Shown: one piece after another, positions 5,574 through 21,955 of the stretch
Position numbering within the stretch: position 1 is the first letter of the stretch
Layout of the letters: each line of letters starts with the position of its first letter
IMG/VR virus record: IMGVR_UViG_3300045125_000037
Span: 1-29,330 of that record
Reading direction: 5' to 3' (one strand)
From: a virus
DNA: 29,330 nt
Translations under genes and position numbers: made by a program
Notes under the pieces: generated by a model
Seen by the model: only the letters and a program-made list of their open reading frames with translations
The model's database searches: none
What the model was told of the DNA's origin: nothing

Positions 5574-5706
5574 AGGTAACACAGCTATCTCTTTTGTCAG
5601 GAAGCCTAAGAGAAAAAAGACCACGGTATTCACTCCAAGTGCCGAGCATCACGGAGTAAGAGTGCTAAGAATTACGTTCAAACTATATAAAGGACAAGGC
5701 AAATGA
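5560..5706 (+). CDS. Small basic protein of unknown function (about 48 aa)
   Basis: ATG at 5560 overlaps the end of the protease gene. The product starts MSKTKGNTAISFVRKPKRKK and, after a one-base shift near 5630, reads HSKCRASRSKSAKNYVQ and ends YKGQGK. Such short Lys/Arg/Ser-rich proteins recur beside XkdF-type protease genes in Bacteroidota phages, but I know of no assigned function. The net charge suggests nucleic acid or scaffold contact, which is inference. The stop at 5704-5706 overlaps the next ATG as ATGA. Confidence 0.6.
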   Translation: MSKTKGNTAISFVRKPKRKKTTVFTPSAEHHGVRVLRITFKLYKGQGK

Positions 5707-5853
5707 GTAAGACTAAGGAACAGACTAAGAGCTCACCCCAAGGTGGGAAGCGTGGATGCCTCTGCAAGGATGGAAAGTACCTGTAGTAAGTGCTGTGATG
5801 GTACACTGCAGGCACAAGGCATTGGTAACATTGGTGGGAAAGTTCAGCCATAA
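5703..5853 (+). CDS. Small cysteine-containing protein of unknown function (about 50 aa)
   Basis: ATG at 5703 overlaps the preceding stop. The product reads MSKTKEQTKSSPQGGKRG, then CLCKDGKYS and, after a shift near 5790, KCCDGTLQAQGIGNIGG before the stop at 5851-5853. The CLCxDG...CCDG spacing could hold a metal ion, but no known zinc fold is evident. It shares its first five residues with the preceding small protein, perhaps a trace of duplication. I recall similar peptides between protease and capsid genes in related phages; no function is known. Confidence 0.55.
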
Positions 5854-5895
5854 AGGTGTACAACATTAAAATAATCGAGTTATTAAAGAAAAATC

Positions 5896-6505
5896 ATGAA
5901 AGAAAACACAATTTTAAGCAGAATTGCCGCCCTCCTTGGCATGAACAAGGTGAGTTAGCTACAATGAAGCTCATGGATGGGGTTACTGTCCTTGAGGCTG
6001 ATGCATTTGAGGCCGGTATGGAGGTCTTTATTGTTACTGAGGATGAGCAACGAGTGGCTCTACCTGTTGGTGAGTATGAGCTTGAGGATGGTTCTGATGT
6101 TGGTGGTAGCTCAGGAGGGTATCATTGCAGAAATTAAACCTGCTGAGGCACAAGAGGAAGCACCTGTCGTGACCTTATAGTGAGGCAGAAGAGCCTGCTA
6201 CTGAGCCAATGATGGAGGAGCAAATGGCTGACGAAGCTATCCCTGTTGCACCTAAGAAAGTAATTAAAAGCACTATTGAGGAGATGTTATTCTCTAAGAT
6301 TGAAGAATTAAAAGCTGAGAATGAGGCATTGAAGCAACAACTATCCGAGCAACCTGTAGTAGAAGAGGCTCCAGTGGTTGAAGAACCTGTCGCTAAGCCG
6401 ATTGCTCACAACCCAGAGAAGCCACAGGCACAACCACAATTTACTTGGGGTCAGTCTGCAGGTGAATCTACATTTGACCGTATCATTGCTAAACTAAACA
6501 AATAA
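5896..6505 (+). CDS. Scaffolding-like protein preceding the major capsid protein (about 200 aa)
   Basis: The start at 5896 gives MKENTILSRIAALLGMNK, and after a shift near 5948 ELATMKLMDGVTVLEADAFE and VALPVGEYELEDGS. A second shift pair near 6110 and 6180 leads into an acidic, Glu/Pro-rich linker and a coiled coil (6260-6345, FSKIEELKAENEALKQQL). It ends STFDRIIAKLNK at 6505. The order beta-rich head, acidic linker, coiled coil and short basic-amphipathic end, directly before the capsid gene, fits a scaffold that is removed by the protease upstream. No sequence motif proves this, and a decoration protein is possible. Confidence 0.65.
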
Positions 6506-6512
6506 CAAAAAA

Positions 6513-7482
6513 ATGGCTACTTGATTACAACCACTTATGCTGGTGAGTTTGCAGGCAAGTATGTTGCCGCCGCTTCTTTTATCTGCTCCTACCATTGAGA
6601 AAGGTGGAGTTACTGTACTTCCAAATGTACGTTACAAGCAACTTTTGCAGAAGGTTGCTGATTCTAACCTTGTAAGAAATGCTACTTGCTCGTTCACCGA
6701 TGCATCTACCATTACACTTACTGAGCGATTCATCACAACTAAGGACCTACAAGTGAACCTTGAATTGTGTAAATCTGACTACTTCCAAACATGGCAAAGT
6801 GCTGAGTTAGGTTTCTCAACTTCAAAGAATTGCCTAAGTCTTTTGCTGACTTCATGATTGCTCGTGTTGCTGACGTGTATCTGCTAATATCGAGACTGCA
6901 TTCTGGCAAGAGTGCTACTGCAACCAACGGTTCATTTGATGGTATCTCTACCATTGTTGCATTGGATATCGCTCTTCCTGCTGCTCAAGAGGTTGCAGGT
7001 ACAACCGTTACTGCTCTTAACGTAGTTACTGAGTTAGGTAAGATTGTTGATGCTGTTCCTGTCTGCTTCTTTATGGTAACCCAAGGTTTACGCATCTATG
7101 TATCTACTAACATTGCTAAGGCTTATGTACGTGCATTGGGTGGGTTCTCTACTGTATCTGGTACTACAGGTAACGTAGCTCCTGGCTCTTATATGTTGGT
7201 GGAATGTCAACTACTTGGTACAACCAAGGTGCATTAAGCTTTGACGGAATCGAGATATTCTGGGCTCATGGATTGGCTTCCAACACAGCTATCTGTACAA
7301 CTGTTGACAACCTATTCTTTGGTACATCTGTATTGAGTGACTTGAATGAGGTTAAAGTAATTGACATGGCTGACATCGATGGTTCACAAAATGTGAGAAT
7401 GATCATGCGATTCACAGGTGGTGCTCAATACGGTGCTGTTGAAAACGTAGTTACCTACGGAATCACTAATTCTGCTAACTAA
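6513..7482 (+). CDS. Major capsid protein (about 320 aa)
   Basis: This forms the icosahedral head. The start at 6513 gives MAT, and restoring one base near 6521 continues LITTTYAGEFAGKYVAAA. Signature blocks follow: GGVTVLPNVRYKQLLQKVA, DLQVNLELCKSDYFQTW and, after a shift near 6825, FKELPKSFADFMIARVAD. The C-terminal half has RIYVSTNIAKAYVRALGG and GIEIFWAHGLASNTA and ends ENVVTYGITNSAN. These are the blocks I recall in the capsid family of Bacteroidota siphoviruses, which probably takes the HK97 fold. Further shifts lie near 6880, 7060 and 7195. It follows the scaffold-like gene after only seven bases, and it is the expected highest-expressed product. Confidence 0.87.
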
Positions 7483-13823: not shown

Positions 13824-14263
13824 ATGAGGCTTTCAGTAATTATTTTGTCGCTAATTTCTACTATATTTGCGACATCCTGCTCAGCTCTAAGCGAGCACAA
13901 TACCACTACAAGCGTGCCTTAGCTAATGGGCTAAAGGTTGAGGTGGGTAGTGACACTATCCGTGTGGCCACCATTGACAGCATCCCTGTTATTAAGAATG
14001 ATACCATAGTGTGGGAAAAGGTACTCACCTACAAGGATACCATTTTGATGTATAGGACAGTCACCCTGCCTAAGACCCGTTGGCAGACCAAGATAGAATG
14101 GAAGTACCGTACCAAAATAGAGAAGATTAAAGGTGATGTGATAACCAAACAGCATGAGGTGGTGAGATATAAGTTAAGGTGGTGGCCGTTTTGGTTAGGC
14201 TTAGCCATACCCTTCCTGCTTAGGTTACTGTGGTCCTTAGTGCTCACCAAAATCAACCGATGA
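13824..14263 (+). CDS. Candidate unimolecular spanin: lipoprotein signal plus C-terminal membrane segment
   Basis: Unimolecular spanins join inner and outer membranes and disrupt the latter in the last lysis step. I chose ATG at 13824, four bases after the endolysin stop. It gives a Lys/Arg-poor but typical lipoprotein signal (MRLSVIILSLI, then FATSC as lipobox). After a shift near 13890 the periplasmic part reads YHYKRALANGLKVEV, IRVATIDSIPVIKNDTIVWE, a charged coiled stretch and KTRWQTKIEWKYRTKI. It ends with a C-terminal hydrophobic helix (WWPFWLGLAIPFLLRLLWSL) and basic TKINR. N-terminal lipid anchor plus C-terminal transmembrane helix is the defining layout. The stop overlaps the next ATG as ATGA. 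Confidence 0.72.
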
Positions 14264-15036
14264 GAAAACGCTTATTTTATGACATTGAAACCTCATTCAA
14301 TGTCGGTATATTCTGGAGGACAGGATATAACCTAACCATCAACCGGGTGATATCATCCACGAGCGTGCAATTATCTGCATCTGCTACAAGTGGGAGGGTG
14401 AGGAGGAGATTCACAGCCTCACATGGTCAAAATCTCAAAGTGACAAGGCAATGCTTGAAAAGTTCATTAAAGTAATGAGTAAAGCGGATGAGATAGTGGC
14501 CCACAATGGTGATAGATTTGACCTTAAATGGGTGCGTACAAGAGCTTTATATCACGGCATTGATGTAATGCCATTCGTTAAGACCATAGACACGCTTAAA
14601 TGGGCTAAAAAGTACTTTAATTTTAATAGCAACAAACTCGATTACATAGCCAAACTGTTACAGGTAGGGGCTAAGATGGACACAGGAGGGCTTGACCTAT
14701 GGAAAGATATAGTATTTAGGAAGGACATGGAGGCACTTGCTAAGATGGTGGAGTACTGCAAGATGGATGTGGAGGTCCTTGAGGCAGTGTTCAACAAGCT
14801 CAACAGCTATCTTGCACCTCAGCATAACTATGCAGTGCAGCACGGAGGTGAAAAGTACGAATGCCCTGAATGTGGTGGCACTAATTTCTATTTCAATAAG
14901 AAAGTAACCACAGCAGACAGGCACAGTACACTATTGGGTTAAGTGCATCCCCTGCCAAAAGCACCACAGAATCAACCAAAAGACCTTTAGTAAGCTCCAA
15001 GATTACATCTACAAGACCAAGAAATATATCTCTTAG
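14260..15036 (+). CDS. DnaQ/RNase H-like 3'-5' exonuclease with a C-terminal zinc ribbon (about 258 aa)
   Basis: The start at 14260 overlaps the spanin stop. Exonuclease motif I is the D-I-E of LFYDIETSFN (residues 8-10). Motif II is AHNGDRFDLKWVRTRAL, and motif III is YCKMDVEVLEAVF near residue 165. The C-terminal part has CPECGG (about 14860) and, after a shift near 14925, VKCIPCQKH, forming a four-cysteine ribbon. The protein resembles the stand-alone ribonuclease H-like exonucleases of Bacteroidota phages; no polymerase domain is attached. Its substrate is unknown. Shifts lie near 14350 and 14925. It is the last gene before the control region, so it may be transcribed with the lysis genes. 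Confidence 0.8.
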
Positions 15037-15040
15037 GTTA

Positions 15041-15095
15041 ATTATTTACACATGATTGTTATCTCATAGGTAAATAATCGGAATTAAGCCGATTA
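15041..15095. repeat. Two overlapping inverted repeats after the exonuclease gene
   Basis: ATTATTTAC (15041-15049) is matched by its reverse complement GTAAATAAT (15070-15078). TAATCGG (15075-15081) is matched by CCGATTA (15089-15095) around a seven-base loop. The two structures share 15075-15078, so they are mutually exclusive hairpins. They could end the upstream transcript, though there is no strong T-run, or bind a regulator. Confidence 0.55.
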
Positions 15096-15120
15096 CACCC
15101 CCTTAATTTTACATTTCCTT

Positions 15121-15139
15121 ATTTAGAATCATTCTAAAT
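15121..15139. promoter_or_regulatory. Perfect 19-base palindrome, operator candidate
   Basis: The site reads ATTTAGAATCATTCTAAAT: nine-base arms and a single central base. It ends 11 bases before the -33 element of the strong promoter. A symmetrical site of this size next to a promoter is typical of a dimeric repressor or activator. No candidate binding protein was identified by sequence, although the helix-turn-helix protein at 17082 is an option. Confidence 0.6.
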
Positions 15140-15141
15140 TT

Positions 15142-15160
15142 TGTTGATAATTTGTCAACA
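15142..15160. promoter_or_regulatory. Inverted repeat spanning the -33 box, second operator candidate
   Basis: TGTTGA (15142-15147) and TCAACA (15155-15160) are exact reverse complements separated by seven bases. The -33 element TTTG (15151-15154) lies inside the spacer, so a bound protein would block RNA polymerase directly. Confidence 0.45.
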
Positions 15161-15181
15161 TTGAAACTATTTGTATATTTG
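15151..15181 (+). promoter_or_regulatory. Bacteroidota-type promoter for the early genes
   Basis: TTTG at 15151-15154 and TATATTTG at 15174-15181 are separated by exactly 19 bases. This matches the consensus known for the primary sigma factor of Bacteroidota (TTTG-N19-TAnnTTTG). Transcription would start about seven bases later, giving a leader of roughly 20 bases to the ATG at 15210. It is the only perfect match I found, and it sits at the late/early boundary. Confidence 0.85.
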
Positions 15182-15209
15182 TCAAGTATTAACACTTAAA
15201 CATTTATAC

Positions 15210-15392
15210 ATGACACGAGAATTTGAAATTGAAATGGTCATCCTTGACATGGAGCAAGAGCTTCGGGATGAGATGTAGGAAATGCTTGATGCCTTCGGTC
15301 CACATGACTCAGGTACTAACTTCATGACCACCAAATGGGCTGTACTTGACGATTTATTAACCCGATTAAATTTAACCCATTATGAAAAGTAA
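15210..15392 (+). CDS. Small early protein of unknown function (about 60 aa), with an in-frame stop
   Basis: This is the first gene after the strong promoter. ATG at 15210 gives MTREFEIEMVILDMEQELRD, with a TAG at 15276-15278 interrupting an otherwise sensible frame that continues EMLDAFGPHDSGTNF, TTKWAVLDDLL and LTHYEK to TAA at 15390-15392. A base error is the likeliest cause of the TAG. The protein is acidic, with no recognisable domain. Early position suggests a host-takeover or regulatory role, which is inference only. Its 3' end overlaps the next small gene by 11 bases. Confidence 0.5.
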
Positions 15393-15774: not shown

Positions 15775-16042
15775 ATGAAAGGGAAAAACACTATACGAAT
15801 GTGCATCGGTGGTGGAGGAGTCAGTCCTTCAGCCATGACATAGGAGGTAGCTTCAACATGGAGCTCTATTACGAATATCTTAAATGTAAAGCAAAATGTA
15901 CAGACTTACAATACTACATACACACCCAGCTCATCCGTGAATGGGTGTTCAACAGCAGAGGGCTCTGCCGATGGAAACAGACAACAGCTCATTCTTTCAG
16001 GGGATTGCAGAGATGGGTAACTTCAAAATTGTCACGGTAATG
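15775..16042 (+). CDS. Early protein of unknown function (about 85 aa), frame uncertain
   Basis: ATG at 15775 gives, with one base removed near 15785, MKGKTLYECASVVEESVLQP. After a shift near 15835 it continues HDIGGSFNMELYYEYLKC, KAKCTDLQYYIHTQLIREWV and FNSRG. A third frame gives METDNSSFFQGIAEMGNFKI. The true end is unclear; a TAA at 16038-16040 overlapping the HNH start as TAATG would fit the habit of this genome. No domain is recognised. The helical, Tyr/Lys-rich middle suggests a small soluble protein. Confidence 0.4.
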
Positions 16043-16666
16043 AATAAAGAGCAGTTAATTAGAGTGCTGTACCCCACCGTACCAAGCAGGCCCCTGTGTG
16101 ATTACCTTGGCATTACAATGTCACAGCTCTACAACCGAGTATTTCAAATGGGGGTAAAGAAAAACCCACGCATCAAGTACCTGCAGAATCGAGCCTTGAG
16201 ACTCAATGGAGGTATGAAGAGCAGATGGCAACGTGGTTATGAGCCACATAACAAGGGTAAGCAGATGAGCAGTGAGCTCTATGCAGAAGGTAAGACCTAC
16301 CATGTACAAGCGCTAAGCAACAAGCCATTCAATACACGGGAGCCTAATGCAACAAGCATCCGATGGGATAAGACAGGAAGGCCCTACTCCTACACTAAGG
16401 TAAAGGATAGCCTTTGGGTGCTCACTCACAGGTTAGTGTGGGAGTCCATCTACGGACCAATACCCAAGGACCACGTGGTTAGATTCAAGGATGGCAACAA
16501 CCTCAACATACAGATTGATAACCTTGAGTGCATCCCTAAGACTGAGAATGCAATACGAAACAGCATCCACCGCTTCCTAGGTGAAGTGCAGACAGTAATA
16601 AGATTAAAGAGTAAATTAAATAAACAAATAAAACAAAAACAAAATGGCAAGAAACGGAATGAATGA
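16040..16666 (+). CDS. HNH endonuclease (208 aa)
   Basis: ATG at 16040 gives MNKEQLIRVLYPTVPSRPLC, and the frame is unbroken to TGA at 16664-16666. The first third has a helix-turn-helix-like segment (LCDYLGITMSQLYNRVFQMG), then HNKGKQMSSELYAEG. The nuclease core is THRLVWESIYGPIPKDHVV, RFKDGNNLN and IQIDNLECI: the His of HRLVWE, the Asp/Asn of KDGN and the Asn of IDNLE correspond to the HNH_3-type site. Such enzymes may be homing endonucleases or part of DNA metabolism. There is no intron or disrupted host gene around it, so a free-standing role is likely. The basic C-terminal tail overlaps the next start by 23 bases. Confidence 0.83.
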   Translation: MNKEQLIRVLYPTVPSRPLCDYLGITMSQLYNRVFQMGVKKNPRIKYLQNRALRLNGGMKSRWQRGYEPHNKGKQMSSELYAEGKTYHVQALSNKPFNTREPNATSIRWDKTGRPYSYTKVKDSLWVLTHRLVWESIYGPIPKDHVVRFKDGNNLNIQIDNLECIPKTENAIRNSIHRFLGEVQTVIRLKSKLNKQIKQKQNGKKRNE

Positions 16667-17601: not shown

Positions 17602-17791
17602 CGTGACGACGTGACAACCCAAATGCATATGAGCCATATATTTAATACAGTGATATTCACCCCCAAAAAGTTGATTTTGAGTCGTCACGTTGTCACGGAA
17701 ACACAAGAAACCCAATACTGACGGGGCTTATAGGCGTGACAACTACCCCTTTTGGGGTTGTCACGGGTTGTCACTGTCACGAGTTGTCACG
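17602..17791. repeat. Intergenic cluster of CGTGACAAC/GTTGTCACG repeats; origin or operator candidate
   Basis: Copies are at 17602 (CGTGACGAC), 17610 (CGTGACAAC) and 17735 (CGTGACAAC) in the forward sense. In the reverse sense they are at 17681 (GTCGTCACG), 17689 (GTTGTCACG), 17757 (GTTGTCACG), 17767 (GTTGTCACT) and 17783 (GTTGTCACG), with a partial copy at 17775. Together with the three copies inside the gene, this makes eleven within 410 bases. The 17552-17822 interval holds no gene. An AT-rich stretch (17792-17850) follows directly, as expected of a duplex-unwinding element. Confidence 0.78.
17735..17765. repeat. Long hairpin formed by two opposing repeats
   Basis: CGTGACAAC (17735-17743) and GTTGTCACG (17757-17765) are perfect reverse complements. 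The inner CCCC (17746-17749) and GGGG (17754-17757) can extend the stem with a small bulge and TTTT loop. There is no T-run after it, so it is more likely a cruciform or protein site than a terminator. Confidence 0.65.
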
Positions 17792-17816
17792 CATTAGAAT
17801 TAATTTAATATATTTG
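17784..17816 (+). promoter_or_regulatory. Possible promoter for the primase-helicase operon
   Basis: TATATTTG at 17809-17816 is a perfect -7 element. The nearest TTG (17784-17786) lies 22 bases upstream, longer than the usual 19. It falls inside the last GTTGTCACG repeat, so a protein bound there would affect polymerase. The leader to the ATG at 17823 would be nearly absent. Uncorrected indels may have altered the spacing. Confidence 0.4.
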
Positions 17817-17822
17817 CACCCT

Positions 17823-20184
17823 ATGTATAACCCTTATATATCAATTTTCAAGAGTCTCTACAATAGTAAAGAGACACCATTCTCTATTAAGGCAATAGAG
17901 GTAGCATAACAGAATACAGGTAGGCACACCTGATTTAATTACTAAGATAAAGCCATCCGCAAGGGTAACAATGAGCTCAAGAACAGCCTATATGGCTATC
18001 ATGTTCAATGGTACCTTCAGTGAACGGAAGGATGATGGACTTGTTGAGCACTCTAGGTCTTTGTATCCTGGACTTTGACAAGTACCCCGATGCTGATACC
18101 ATAGGCGAAGCAGAACGGAAGAGGCTCATTGAAGATAAGTATACCTATATGCTTTTCACCTCACCCAGTGGTAAGGGCCTCAAGGTAGTGATTAGGATAC
18201 CTCAATGTGACAAGGTTGAACACCGGAGGAGATTCAGCCACTATGAGCAGTACATCAACAGTGAGTACTTTGACACCTCCAACAAGAATGTGAGCAGGGT
18301 GTGCTTTGAGTCCTACTGACCCCGAGGCCTATCTCAATGAATTTGCAACGAGTTTACACAGGTATCATTGAGGATACAGGGTACCACCGTAGTGAATACA
18401 CCCCCAAGGTGGTGATAACCAACGAGAACAGGATCATTGAGAAGATACTCAAGTTCAACCATGGTGAATTTAAGGAAGGAAATAGGGCTAACTGGATCTA
18501 CAAGGTAGCCTGCTGCCTATGTGAGTACTCTATTCCCCTTAGTACTGCGGAAAATACACTGCTGCAATTCACGCAGGAAGGCTTTGGAGCTACCGAGATA
18601 ACCAATACCATTAGGAATGCATACAAGCAGGCTCAGTTTGGCCTTAAAGTGTTTGAGGATGTAGAAGCCATCCAAGGGATAAAGGCTAAATTAAAGGAGG
18701 GAATTGCTCCCGAGGATATCAGTAAGCAGTTAAGTGTATCTAAGGATGATATTAAGGCCATCCAAAAGGAGGAGGACATCTTTTGGGAGGTAAAAAAAGA
18801 CACTGGTAATATCATACCCAACAAGTATGCGGCATGGTTGCACAAGCAAGGCTTTGCTAAGTACTACCCTGAGCGTTCAAATAACCCCCTTTCGTGTACA
18901 TAACAGAGAATAAGGTCCAAGAGAGCTCAGTTGAGAAGATAAAGGACCATGTACTAACCTATCTAATGGAGCAGGGAGCTGATGGATGTGTACAACCACT
19001 GTGCTAAGAGCTCACAACTATTCACACCTGTGGCACCTCAATATGCTTGACTCCATTGATATGCGTATCCTGCAGGACTCGCAAGACCGAGTGCTACCTC
19101 CCATTCACCAATGGGGTGGCAGTGATCACTAAGAACAAGGTCAAGCTCATCAGCTACATTGATATTGATGGATACATCTGGCGATGACCAAATAATACCA
19201 AGGGAGTTCAAGGTTGAGAATACCTACGAGAATAACTTTCAGGATTTCGTCAACAAGATAGCAGGCACAGGACCCTAACCGAATCAAGTCAATGAGGACC
19301 ACCATAGGGTACCTGCTCCATACCTACAAGGACAAGGCAGACCAAAAGGCAGTGATTATTCAATCGATGAAGAGATAGACGATAACCCTAATGGAGGGGA
19401 GTGGTAAGTCACTAATGCTCACAGCCCTTGGCCACATCCGAAAGATTGTGAAGATAGACGGTAAGATGTTCAACCCAGGTAAGAATGATTTTGTCTATTC
19501 AAGGGTGAACCCCTGATACACAGGTATTGGCCTTTGATGATGTTGAAAGCACTTCAATCTTTGAGCAGTTATTCTCACTCATCACGGAGGGCATCCCTGT
19601 CAACAGGAAGAACAAGGATGAGTACTACATCCCATACGAGCGAAGCCCTAAGATAGTCATCACCACCAACTACGTGATTAGCAGGAGCAGGTGGAAGCCA
19701 CGACAGGTGAGGAGGCATGAGGTTGAGTTCAACCAATACTTCAATGCTAACCATAGCCCCATTGATGAGTATGGTGTGCAAGCTATTCGACCAATGGACC
19801 ACATGAGGAGTGGAGCTACTTTGACAATTACATGATTGGCAATATCAAGTACTACTTTGAGCATGGCCTATTCCAAACCACAGGTATCAACAGCGACATC
19901 AAGAAGCTCATCCAAAACACCTGCAAGGAGTTCTATGACTTTGTTGAGGACACACCACTGATAGCAGATGGTAAACACTTGCACCGGTACAAGGGGCTCA
20001 TGATGCAATTCCAAGAGGAAACCAACAGCTTCAAGGACCTCAAGCCTCAAGTATTCTCCCGATGGATTGACTGCTATGCAACCCACATGAAATATAAATT
20101 AACTAAACACCGTAACCATGAAGGCGCCATTTTTATCTTACCCCTACTGCTCCTAACAGGATGCAGGACAGCACAGAAGTGTGA
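17823..20184 (+). CDS. VirE-N/BT4734-type primase fused to a D5-like helicase (about 780 aa)
   Basis: This protein should prime and unwind phage DNA. ATG at 17823 gives MYNPYISIFKSLYNSKETPF. The VirE-N domain shows MFNGTFSERKDDGLVEHS, then CILDFDKYPDAD, LFTSPSGKGLKVVIRIPQC and SRVCFESYDPEAYLN. A middle region (18420-18900) precedes a superfamily 3-like ATPase: Walker A is GGSGKSLMLTALG (about 19395), Walker B is VLAFDDVE (19526), and a sensor strand is KIVITTNYVIS (19650). The end, WIDCYATHMKYKLTKHRNHE, then FYLTPTAPNRMQDSTEV, stops at 20182-20184. Shifts are frequent, for example near 17910, 18045, 18318, 18895, 18985, 19080, 19185, 19270, 19370, 19510, 19690 and 19780. Confidence 0.83.
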
Positions 20185-20802: not shown

Positions 20803-21339
20803 ATGACAACAAGAGCAAAAAAGAGGAGGTAGCACCTCAGGCGAACAGCCTAAACATCTACCAAAAGCTACACTTGGCTAAGCAGTCAATGGGTAAGGTC
20901 ATTAAGAATGCCACAAACCCCCATTTGAAGCGTAACTATGCCGACATCAACAGCATCATTGATACGGTGGAGCCTATCCTGTTGGACCATGGCCTGCTAT
21001 TGATACAGCCTGTTAAGGATGATAAGGTCTACACCATAGTGGTTGACATTGAGAATGGTGATAGATTTGAGTCCTTCATGCAGTTACCGGTCATTACCGA
21101 TGCACAGAAGCTCGGTGGTGCCATTACTTACTTCCGTAGGTACACACTTGTATCTCTCCTTTCCCTGCAAGCTGTGGATGATGATGGCCATGAGGCTTCA
21201 AGAGCACCCAAGACTAAGCCTATCCATCACTGCTGATAGATTTGCCAATGCATTGAAAGCCATCCAAGAAGGAAGGTACACCAATGAGGAGCTGAGAGCT
21301 ACCTATTCACTTACTAAAGAACAGGAGGCACAGCTATGA
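20803..21339 (+). CDS. erf: ERF-family single-strand annealing recombinase (about 178 aa)
   Basis: ERF proteins anneal complementary single strands during phage recombination and genome circularisation. ATG at 20803 gives MTTRAKK. After a shift near 20822 comes EEVAPQANSLNIYQKLHLAK, then QSMGKVIKNATNPHLKRNYA, DINSIIDTVEPILLDHGLLL, KLGGAITYFRRYTLVSLLSL and QAVDDDGHEA. The NP-x(4)-YAD/I...VEPIL and GGAITY-RRY-L motifs are the family hallmarks. A second shift near 21225 leads to TADRFANALKAIQEG and the stop at 21337-21339, which overlaps the exonuclease ATG. It forms an annealase-exonuclease pair with the next gene. Confidence 0.87.
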
Positions 21340-21955
21340 AATTCCGAGCATCACAATTAGGCAAGATAATGACTCTCCAGGACTAAGGGGGAGGCATTAG
21401 GACAAACAGCTAAGACCTATATCATTGAGAAGGCTAAGGAGGATTTCTATGGGTACCGTACTCAACTCATGAATAAGTACGTTCTGAAGGGCTTAGAGCA
21501 GGAACAGGACAGTATTGACTTACTCAATGGGGTAAGGTTCCAAAAGTACATTAAAAACGAGCAGACGGCAGAAAACAGAGTATCTTACCGGATGCTGTGA
21601 TATCATTACCGAGGATAGCATCATTGACATCAAGAGCTCATGGTCCTTGGAGACTTTTCCATCTACCATCCTATGAGCTCAAGGACCTGAACGACTATGA
21701 GTGGCAGGGCCGTGCTTATATGTGGCTGTACGATAAGCCTACCTTTGAGCTGTGCTATGTGATGGTGAGCACTCACCCTGAGCTACTGAGTCAGTATGAC
21801 CCCATTGACATCCATGAGGTAGATCACATTGACCCTGTTAAGCGTATTACTTCCATCACCTTTGAGACGTGATAAGGAGATAGAGATAAAGATGCAGGAG
21901 CAGTTGACTTGTCGCGAGCCTGTTCTATGACCAAGTATATAACCCAATTAAATAA
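21336..21955 (+). CDS. YqaJ/lambda-exonuclease-like nuclease (about 205 aa)
   Basis: The enzyme should resect double-stranded ends to feed the annealing protein. ATG at 21336 gives MKFRASQLGKIMT. After a shift near 21380 come TKGEALGQTAKTYIIEKAKE, FQKYIKNEQTAENEYLTGCC and DIITEDSIIDIKSSWSLETF, then DYEWQGRAYMWLYDK. D-I-I...D-I-K-S-S-W is the D...ExK-like core (here D-x-K), and W-Q-x-x-A-Y-M is the conserved helix of YqaJ-type recombinases. It ends FYDQVYNPIK at TAA 21953-21955. Shifts lie near 21380, 21570, 21660 and 21865. Confidence 0.78.

Follow-up and report, generated by a model that had tools for sequence, protein, structure and literature searches.

A palindrome resembling a flavobacterial Fur box in helical register with a predicted early promoter of Bacteroidota phages

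Within the 29,330-base virus record IMGVR_UViG_3300045125_000037, analyzed over its whole length and called the window here, a perfect 19-bp palindrome lies upstream of a predicted Bacteroidetes-type promoter at a distance that changes only by whole helical turns among relatives. We propose, with a probability of about two in three, that a Bacteroidota phage has its main early promoter here and that the Fur protein of the host would serve as its upstream, helix-phased activator. The proposal draws on the close match to a published Fur box, on the conservation and helical phase of the palindrome, on the like geometry found at host respiratory genes, on the position before the early genes and, in addition, on the finding of no Fur-family gene in the phage records. 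Binding of Fur to the phage copy, activation, dependence on iron and direct contact with RNA polymerase are what we infer from these observations.

Promoter and repeats between the exonuclease and the early genes

The features of the control region and its surroundings, in window coordinates, are as follows.

14260-15036, plus strand: DNA polymerase exonuclease subunit, final gene in the late arm, frames broken here
15041-15078: inverted repeat 3' of the exonuclease stop codon (15041-15049/15070-15078; 9-bp arms, loop of 20)
15075-15095, plus strand: short hairpin (15075-15081/15089-15095; 7-bp arms, loop of 7)
15121-15139: perfect palindrome ATTTAGAATCATTCTAAAT (15121-15129/15131-15139; 9-bp arms, one center base)
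15142-15160: inverted repeat over the -33 element (15142-15147/15155-15160; 6-bp arms, loop of 7)
15151-15154, plus strand: -33 element TTTG, aligned in relatives
15174-15181, plus strand: -7 element TATATTTG, ending 51 bases past the palindrome center
15210-15392, plus strand: first gene 3' of the promoter (MTREFEIEM...)
16040-16663, plus strand: HNH endonuclease, early region
17775-20140, plus strand: primase/helicase-like protein, early region, frames broken
20808-21952, plus strand: Erf-like annealing protein and phrog_5715-type exonuclease, early region, frames broken

A first-pass annotation of this DNA had described a compact control region with one perfect promoter and four inverted repeats. 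All four repeats were present where it had placed them, including the two overlapping hairpins within 15041 to 15095 and the perfect 19-base palindrome with its 9-1-9 arrangement, and the promoter TTTG-N19-TATATTTG was confirmed at 15151 to 15181. The motif TTTG-N19-TAnnTTTG, which we take to be the consensus of Bacteroidetes primary-sigma promoters, matched once in the 29,330 bases, with 0.09 matches expected and at least one match in 9 of 100 shuffles. The stretch from 15151 to 15181 agrees with this consensus and is a predicted promoter. A sigma-70-like promoter on the minus strand (11 of 12 bases) was rejected, since it does no more than overlap the palindrome and the type of promoter found indicates Bacteroidota.

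The four repeats did not fare equally as a conserved core. Of 60 dinucleotide-shuffled versions of the window, 12 also had a perfect palindrome with 9-bp arms; such a palindrome alone is not rare, and it is the conservation and the distance to the promoter in relatives that exceed chance. The repeat over the -33 element was unremarkable against shuffles of the window (P = 0.24) and inconsistent among relatives; paired arm changes were seen in a few of them (window, L005, L017, and L023) and were not significant. The repeat is weak, and a second operator over the -33 element is no more than a possibility. Both hairpins within 15041 to 15095 were rejected as conserved elements since they differ among relatives, the short one (15075 to 15095) being partly kept in near relatives. 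The repeat at 15041 to 15078 is perhaps part of a terminator, and the hairpin at 15075 to 15095 is perhaps terminator-like. A terminator scan made no call at 15041 to 15095, and near relatives carry a different stem followed by TTTTT. Rfam gave no match, and blastn of the control region against named phages gave weak matches that were mostly AT-rich noise.

The same annotation had placed the region where the late arm ends and the early genes begin, and gene order bears this out. The relative G399 carries, on one strand, terminase, tail, portal and lysis genes and then the exonuclease, which is followed by the box and promoter, small genes, the HNH endonuclease, the primase/helicase-like protein, the Erf-like protein and a second exonuclease; the order in the window is the same. 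Structural and lysis genes therefore lie upstream of the control region and replication and recombination genes downstream. A single box (up to 3 mismatches) was found in 6 of the 7 mapped records of relatives, always after the exonuclease, as in the window, and none in the mapped record of G413, a member of the box-less clade described below. From the shared gene order and the single box after the exonuclease, we take the control region to be the start of the early region, early expression being judged by gene functions. By exonuclease, the closest named Flavobacterium phages (51% identity) are arranged differently after this gene.

One G399 protein (5587 to 6672) matches the last 900 bases of the window and then its first 193; because it spans both ends, the record has the appearance of a complete genome cut open within a gene. 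Most of the longer G399 genes match the window in at least two pieces, usually in different frames (tblastn), and, set against those of relatives, most of the longer window genes are broken up into two or three frames, resembling an uncorrected long-read contig. The shifting frames make single-base insertions and deletions, of which the contig probably has many, the likelier cause of the short frames; alternative genetic codes (TAG as glutamine, TGA as tryptophan) brought no gain. In contrast to the broken genes around it, the control region aligns cleanly to relatives. The first early gene has an in-frame TAG at 15276 to 15278, where G399 has glutamine.

Spacing of palindrome and promoter across phage lineages

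Relatives were defined as the best 80 of 389 viral-contig matches to the neighboring exonuclease. The palindrome (up to 3 mismatches) was kept in 69 of these 80, its arms keeping their sequence with no covariation. Three of the 11 counted as box-less (L022, L055, and L056) are contigs that end 70 to 207 bases past the exonuclease match. The other eight (L038, L059, L062, L067, L069, L074, L075, and L078) form a single clade that keeps the promoter, which makes the box dispensable and provides a natural comparison set.

Spacing was measured from the palindrome center to the last base of the -7 box. For the window and 68 of the best 80 relatives (L007 was left out of the table since its contig ends inside the promoter), it was 51 or 52 in 34 cases, 61 or 62 in 31, and 71 or 72 in 4. 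All 69 measurable spacings thus fall into three classes, with none between, and these classes are whole helical turns apart. The class changes at least 6 times on the exonuclease tree. Two relatives, L011 and L012, have the box displaced downstream by 324 bases at an unchanged distance to the promoter.

The same geometry was found in other phage lineages. A scan of viral contigs for the palindrome only, read in both orientations, gave at least 120 stretches; among the matches listed, 37 promoters of the form TTG-N18-21-TAnnTTTG followed within 110 bases, 33 of them at 51, 52, 61, 62, 72, or 73. A scan for palindrome plus promoter, which is blind to distances below 53, gave 53 stretches with 57 matches, compared with no stretch for a scrambled palindrome. 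Forty-seven of these matches lie at 61 to 62 or 71 to 74 and the remaining 10 at 75, 77, or 81; 8 of the 10 are without the outer bases of the 19-mer and were kept in the counts.

With identical site sequences counted once in the palindrome-only and grouping counts, the 86 distinct sites among the matches listed fell into 22 groups by downstream proteins and promoter likeness, a rough grouping by lineage in which the biggest group holds 62 sites. With each group represented by a single value, a period of 10.5 bp gave a resultant length of R = 0.77, which none of 20,000 uniform draws reached; for the 14 groups among the listed matches of the palindrome-only scan, it was 0.82 (5e-05). The upstream site is therefore in helical register, as at a class I-type activated promoter. 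A second class of boxes lies at about 30 to 33 from the -7 box, without a -33 element. Its members include L088, L125, L128, L145, L163, L166, and L194, and their flanks often extend the palindrome (CTTATTTAGAAT...ATTCTAAATAAG).

The Fur box and its candidate binders

For the flavobacterium Riemerella anatipestifer, the parts of the published study used here (PMC5609570) describe a predicted Fur box of 19 bp, ATTTAGAATTATTCTAAAT, and report that purified Fur bound four promoters with putative boxes in electrophoretic mobility shift assays (EMSA), which concern other copies of the box than that of the phage. The window palindrome ATTTAGAATCATTCTAAAT is identical to ATTTAGAATTATTCTAAAT at 18 of 19 bases and differs at the center base; it also shares the symmetry and the flavobacterial -33/-7 context (PMC5609570, in part). 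The 19-bp palindrome ATTTAGAATnATTCTAAAT, used as the mark of a flavobacterial Fur box, is present in the window. This likeness to a published host box suggests that the regulator of the phage box is probably host-encoded. All 5 Bacteroidota genomes examined have Fur-family genes, with 1 to 3 apiece. A search of 23 phage records including the window, many frames of which are broken, turned up no such gene, and a local profile built from phage and host Fur gave no Fur-family match in the phage records either. The earlier remark that no known repressor gene is nearby therefore stands as far as Fur-family genes are concerned but had missed the host Fur box; host Fur as the regulator would answer why the gene is absent.

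In bacterial genomes, the palindrome was found in at least 119 stretches, many from Bacteroidota, some from Alphaproteobacteria and others from groups including Firmicutes. Among the matches listed, it occurs at iron and heme genes of Bacteroidota as well as at other genes: the most frequent families among 72 Bacteroidota flanking genes are cytochrome c (6), NqrA (5), TonB plug (4), and GlutR (3), and the flanking genes overall also comprise heme oxygenase, Feo, and non-iron genes. A box 46 to 76 bases before the end of TAnnTTTG gave 28 matches in 25 of 395 genomes of one class, compared with none for a reversed pattern in the same genomes. Fourteen of the 28 lie at 71 to 74, half being outside this range, and 2 at 61. 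Six of the 14 genes at 71 to 74 were scanned with Pfam, of which 5 are multiheme cytochrome c-like and 1 (L395) had no match, for which reason its assignment as a succinate dehydrogenase subunit was dropped; the other 8 were judged by eye from their first residues only. The two matches at 61 precede a cytochrome c gene and an NqrA gene (L390). Among the matches listed, four NqrA-type genes (L277, L281, L326, and L336) have the box 72 to 73 from a -7-like box without the -33 TTG, and these nqrA loci, together with L390, are possible Fur-activated respiratory operons. Boxes nearer the -7 box numbered 19 in 198 host genomes, 11 of them at 18 to 25, and the 8 genes scanned at this distance comprised 3 TonB receptors, 1 FeoA, 1 FeoA-FeoB, and 3 others. 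The same box thus tends to occupy two places, at 61 or 71 to 74 before iron-using genes and at 18 to 25 before iron-uptake genes.

This pattern bears on whether host Fur might instead repress the phage promoter, holding the early genes down in iron-replete cells and releasing them at low iron. Fur is mostly a repressor in the accounts we drew on in part (PMC5609570 and PMC3788343), and the box overlaps the promoters of host TonB receptor and Feo genes. However, these repression-type sites lie at 18 to 25, whereas the phage sites lie at 51 to 74, upstream of the -33 element and in one-turn steps, a placement shared by the host cytochrome c and NqrA sites. A repressor would be expected to sit across the promoter instead, and we regard repression as unlikely.

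A Fur-like protein made by the phage could also bind the box in place of that of the host. Directly ahead of its terminase genes, Polaribacter phage Freya_1 (L399, 4082 to 4510) has a protein annotated as a member of the ferric uptake regulator family; boxes nearly identical to that of the window occur in Freya_1 and, among the matches listed, in Danklef. The Pfam match covers residues 23 to 97 only, the DNA-binding part; the rest is similar to short segments found in contigs L103, L137, and L189. The boxes of these contigs lie at 31 to 33, and their proteins have in common with the Freya protein its C-terminal piece, which in L103 precedes a Fur-like winged helix. No relatives of the Freya protein were confirmed in viral contigs, and among 50,697 phage records only Freya and Danklef phages (17 records) had them. 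The main text of the Polaribacter phage paper (PMC8776804) mentions neither ferric, iron, nor promoter. Freya_1 has its boxes ahead of the portal gene and at two further sites among the structural genes, 20 to 33 from TAnnTTTG, and these are of a different class from the box of the window; the protein may be a captured Fur serving late genes. Some phages thus carry a Fur-like protein of their own and the binder need not always be that of the host. For the window, the lack of Fur-family matches in the 23 records and an early promoter that must work before phage proteins exist make a phage-encoded binder distinctly unlikely.

Another host regulator with the same half-sites, a PerR-like member of the Fur family or an unrelated factor, would fit with the presence of up to three Fur-family genes per host genome. 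The palindrome also occurs, among the matches listed, in Alphaproteobacteria and Firmicutes, where other members of the family are known. Against this, the flavobacterial EMSA used Fur itself (PMC5609570, in part) and the listed flanking genes include heme, cytochrome, TonB, and Feo genes, and we hold such a regulator to be very improbable. That the palindrome, which follows a gene end and precedes a few T residues, is an RNA hairpin terminating the exonuclease transcript with incidental spacing is scarcely credible, given arms that conserve sequence instead of covarying, helical phasing that recurs in other lineages, and the displaced boxes of L011 and L012 with their unchanged promoter distance.

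Activation by host Fur and comparison with known systems

We favor activation by host Fur. Iron-loaded Fur would already be in the cell before any phage protein, would sit on the palindrome on the same face of the helix as RNA polymerase and would help the polymerase to start at the downstream Bacteroidetes-type promoter; early transcription would thereby be tied to the iron and respiratory state of the host. A site that moves by whole turns only suggests a protein that has to face RNA polymerase, and the helix-phased upstream position together with the host pattern favors activation over repression. Whatever drives an early promoter has to be in the cell when infection begins, and Fur-family genes were found in all 5 host-type genomes examined and in none of the 23 phage records. 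The earlier suggestion that the region is the main switch would hold in the sense of a main early promoter, with a position that suggests an activator and not a repressor.

It should be noted that R. anatipestifer gives no case for Fur-dependent activation of respiratory genes, because its iron-dependent respiratory genes fell without iron in the wild type and the fur mutant alike (PMC5609570, in part). The clade that does without the box, the 14 of 28 host matches outside 71 to 74 and the 3 of 8 scanned host genes at 18 to 25 that do not serve iron uptake also speak against the proposal. A wider version of the proposal is tentative, and we give it somewhat less than even odds: many unrelated Bacteroidota phages would use the Fur-activated respiratory regulon of the host, with contact to RNA polymerase and gating by iron, and a Freya-like branch would have captured Fur, lost its metal-sensing part and turned it to late promoters. 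If true, infection by many environmental Bacteroidota phages would depend on the iron state of the host, linking iron to phage success. A promoter set in which a Fur box shifts by whole turns also makes contact with RNA polymerase testable in reporters, and here such a set is natural, being found in phages and before host respiratory genes. A literature search, with subscription papers mostly outside its coverage, returned no report of phage early promoters phased with Fur boxes.

Phage genes under host regulators are known from the LexA-controlled CTX phage and from Fur-controlled stx1. The phage described here would similarly use the site of a host regulator; it differs in that the site would serve the main early promoter, recurs in many lineages and has an activating geometry. 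Class I and class II activation by CRP likewise involves a series of allowed positions one turn apart. The phage sites resemble it in their one-turn series and in the second class that overlaps the -33 region (30 to 33), and differ in the putative activator protein, sigma factor, and absolute positions. The R. anatipestifer boxes lie less than 100 bp from the start codons of Fur-regulated genes, several of them for iron uptake (PMC5609570, in part), whereas the phage box lies upstream of an early promoter in helical register. Direct activation by Fur, according to the excerpt of a review used here (PMC3788343), has been described for norB of Neisseria, oorB of Helicobacter, and hilD of Salmonella, with upstream boxes that hardly differ in sequence from those of repressed genes and a contact with RNA polymerase that was not known. 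The phage promoter shares with these genes an upstream box of the repressed-gene sequence. The known activating boxes are about 100 to 200 bp upstream (PMC3788343, in part), whereas those of the phages lie about 55 to 77 bp before the expected start and move in one-turn steps.
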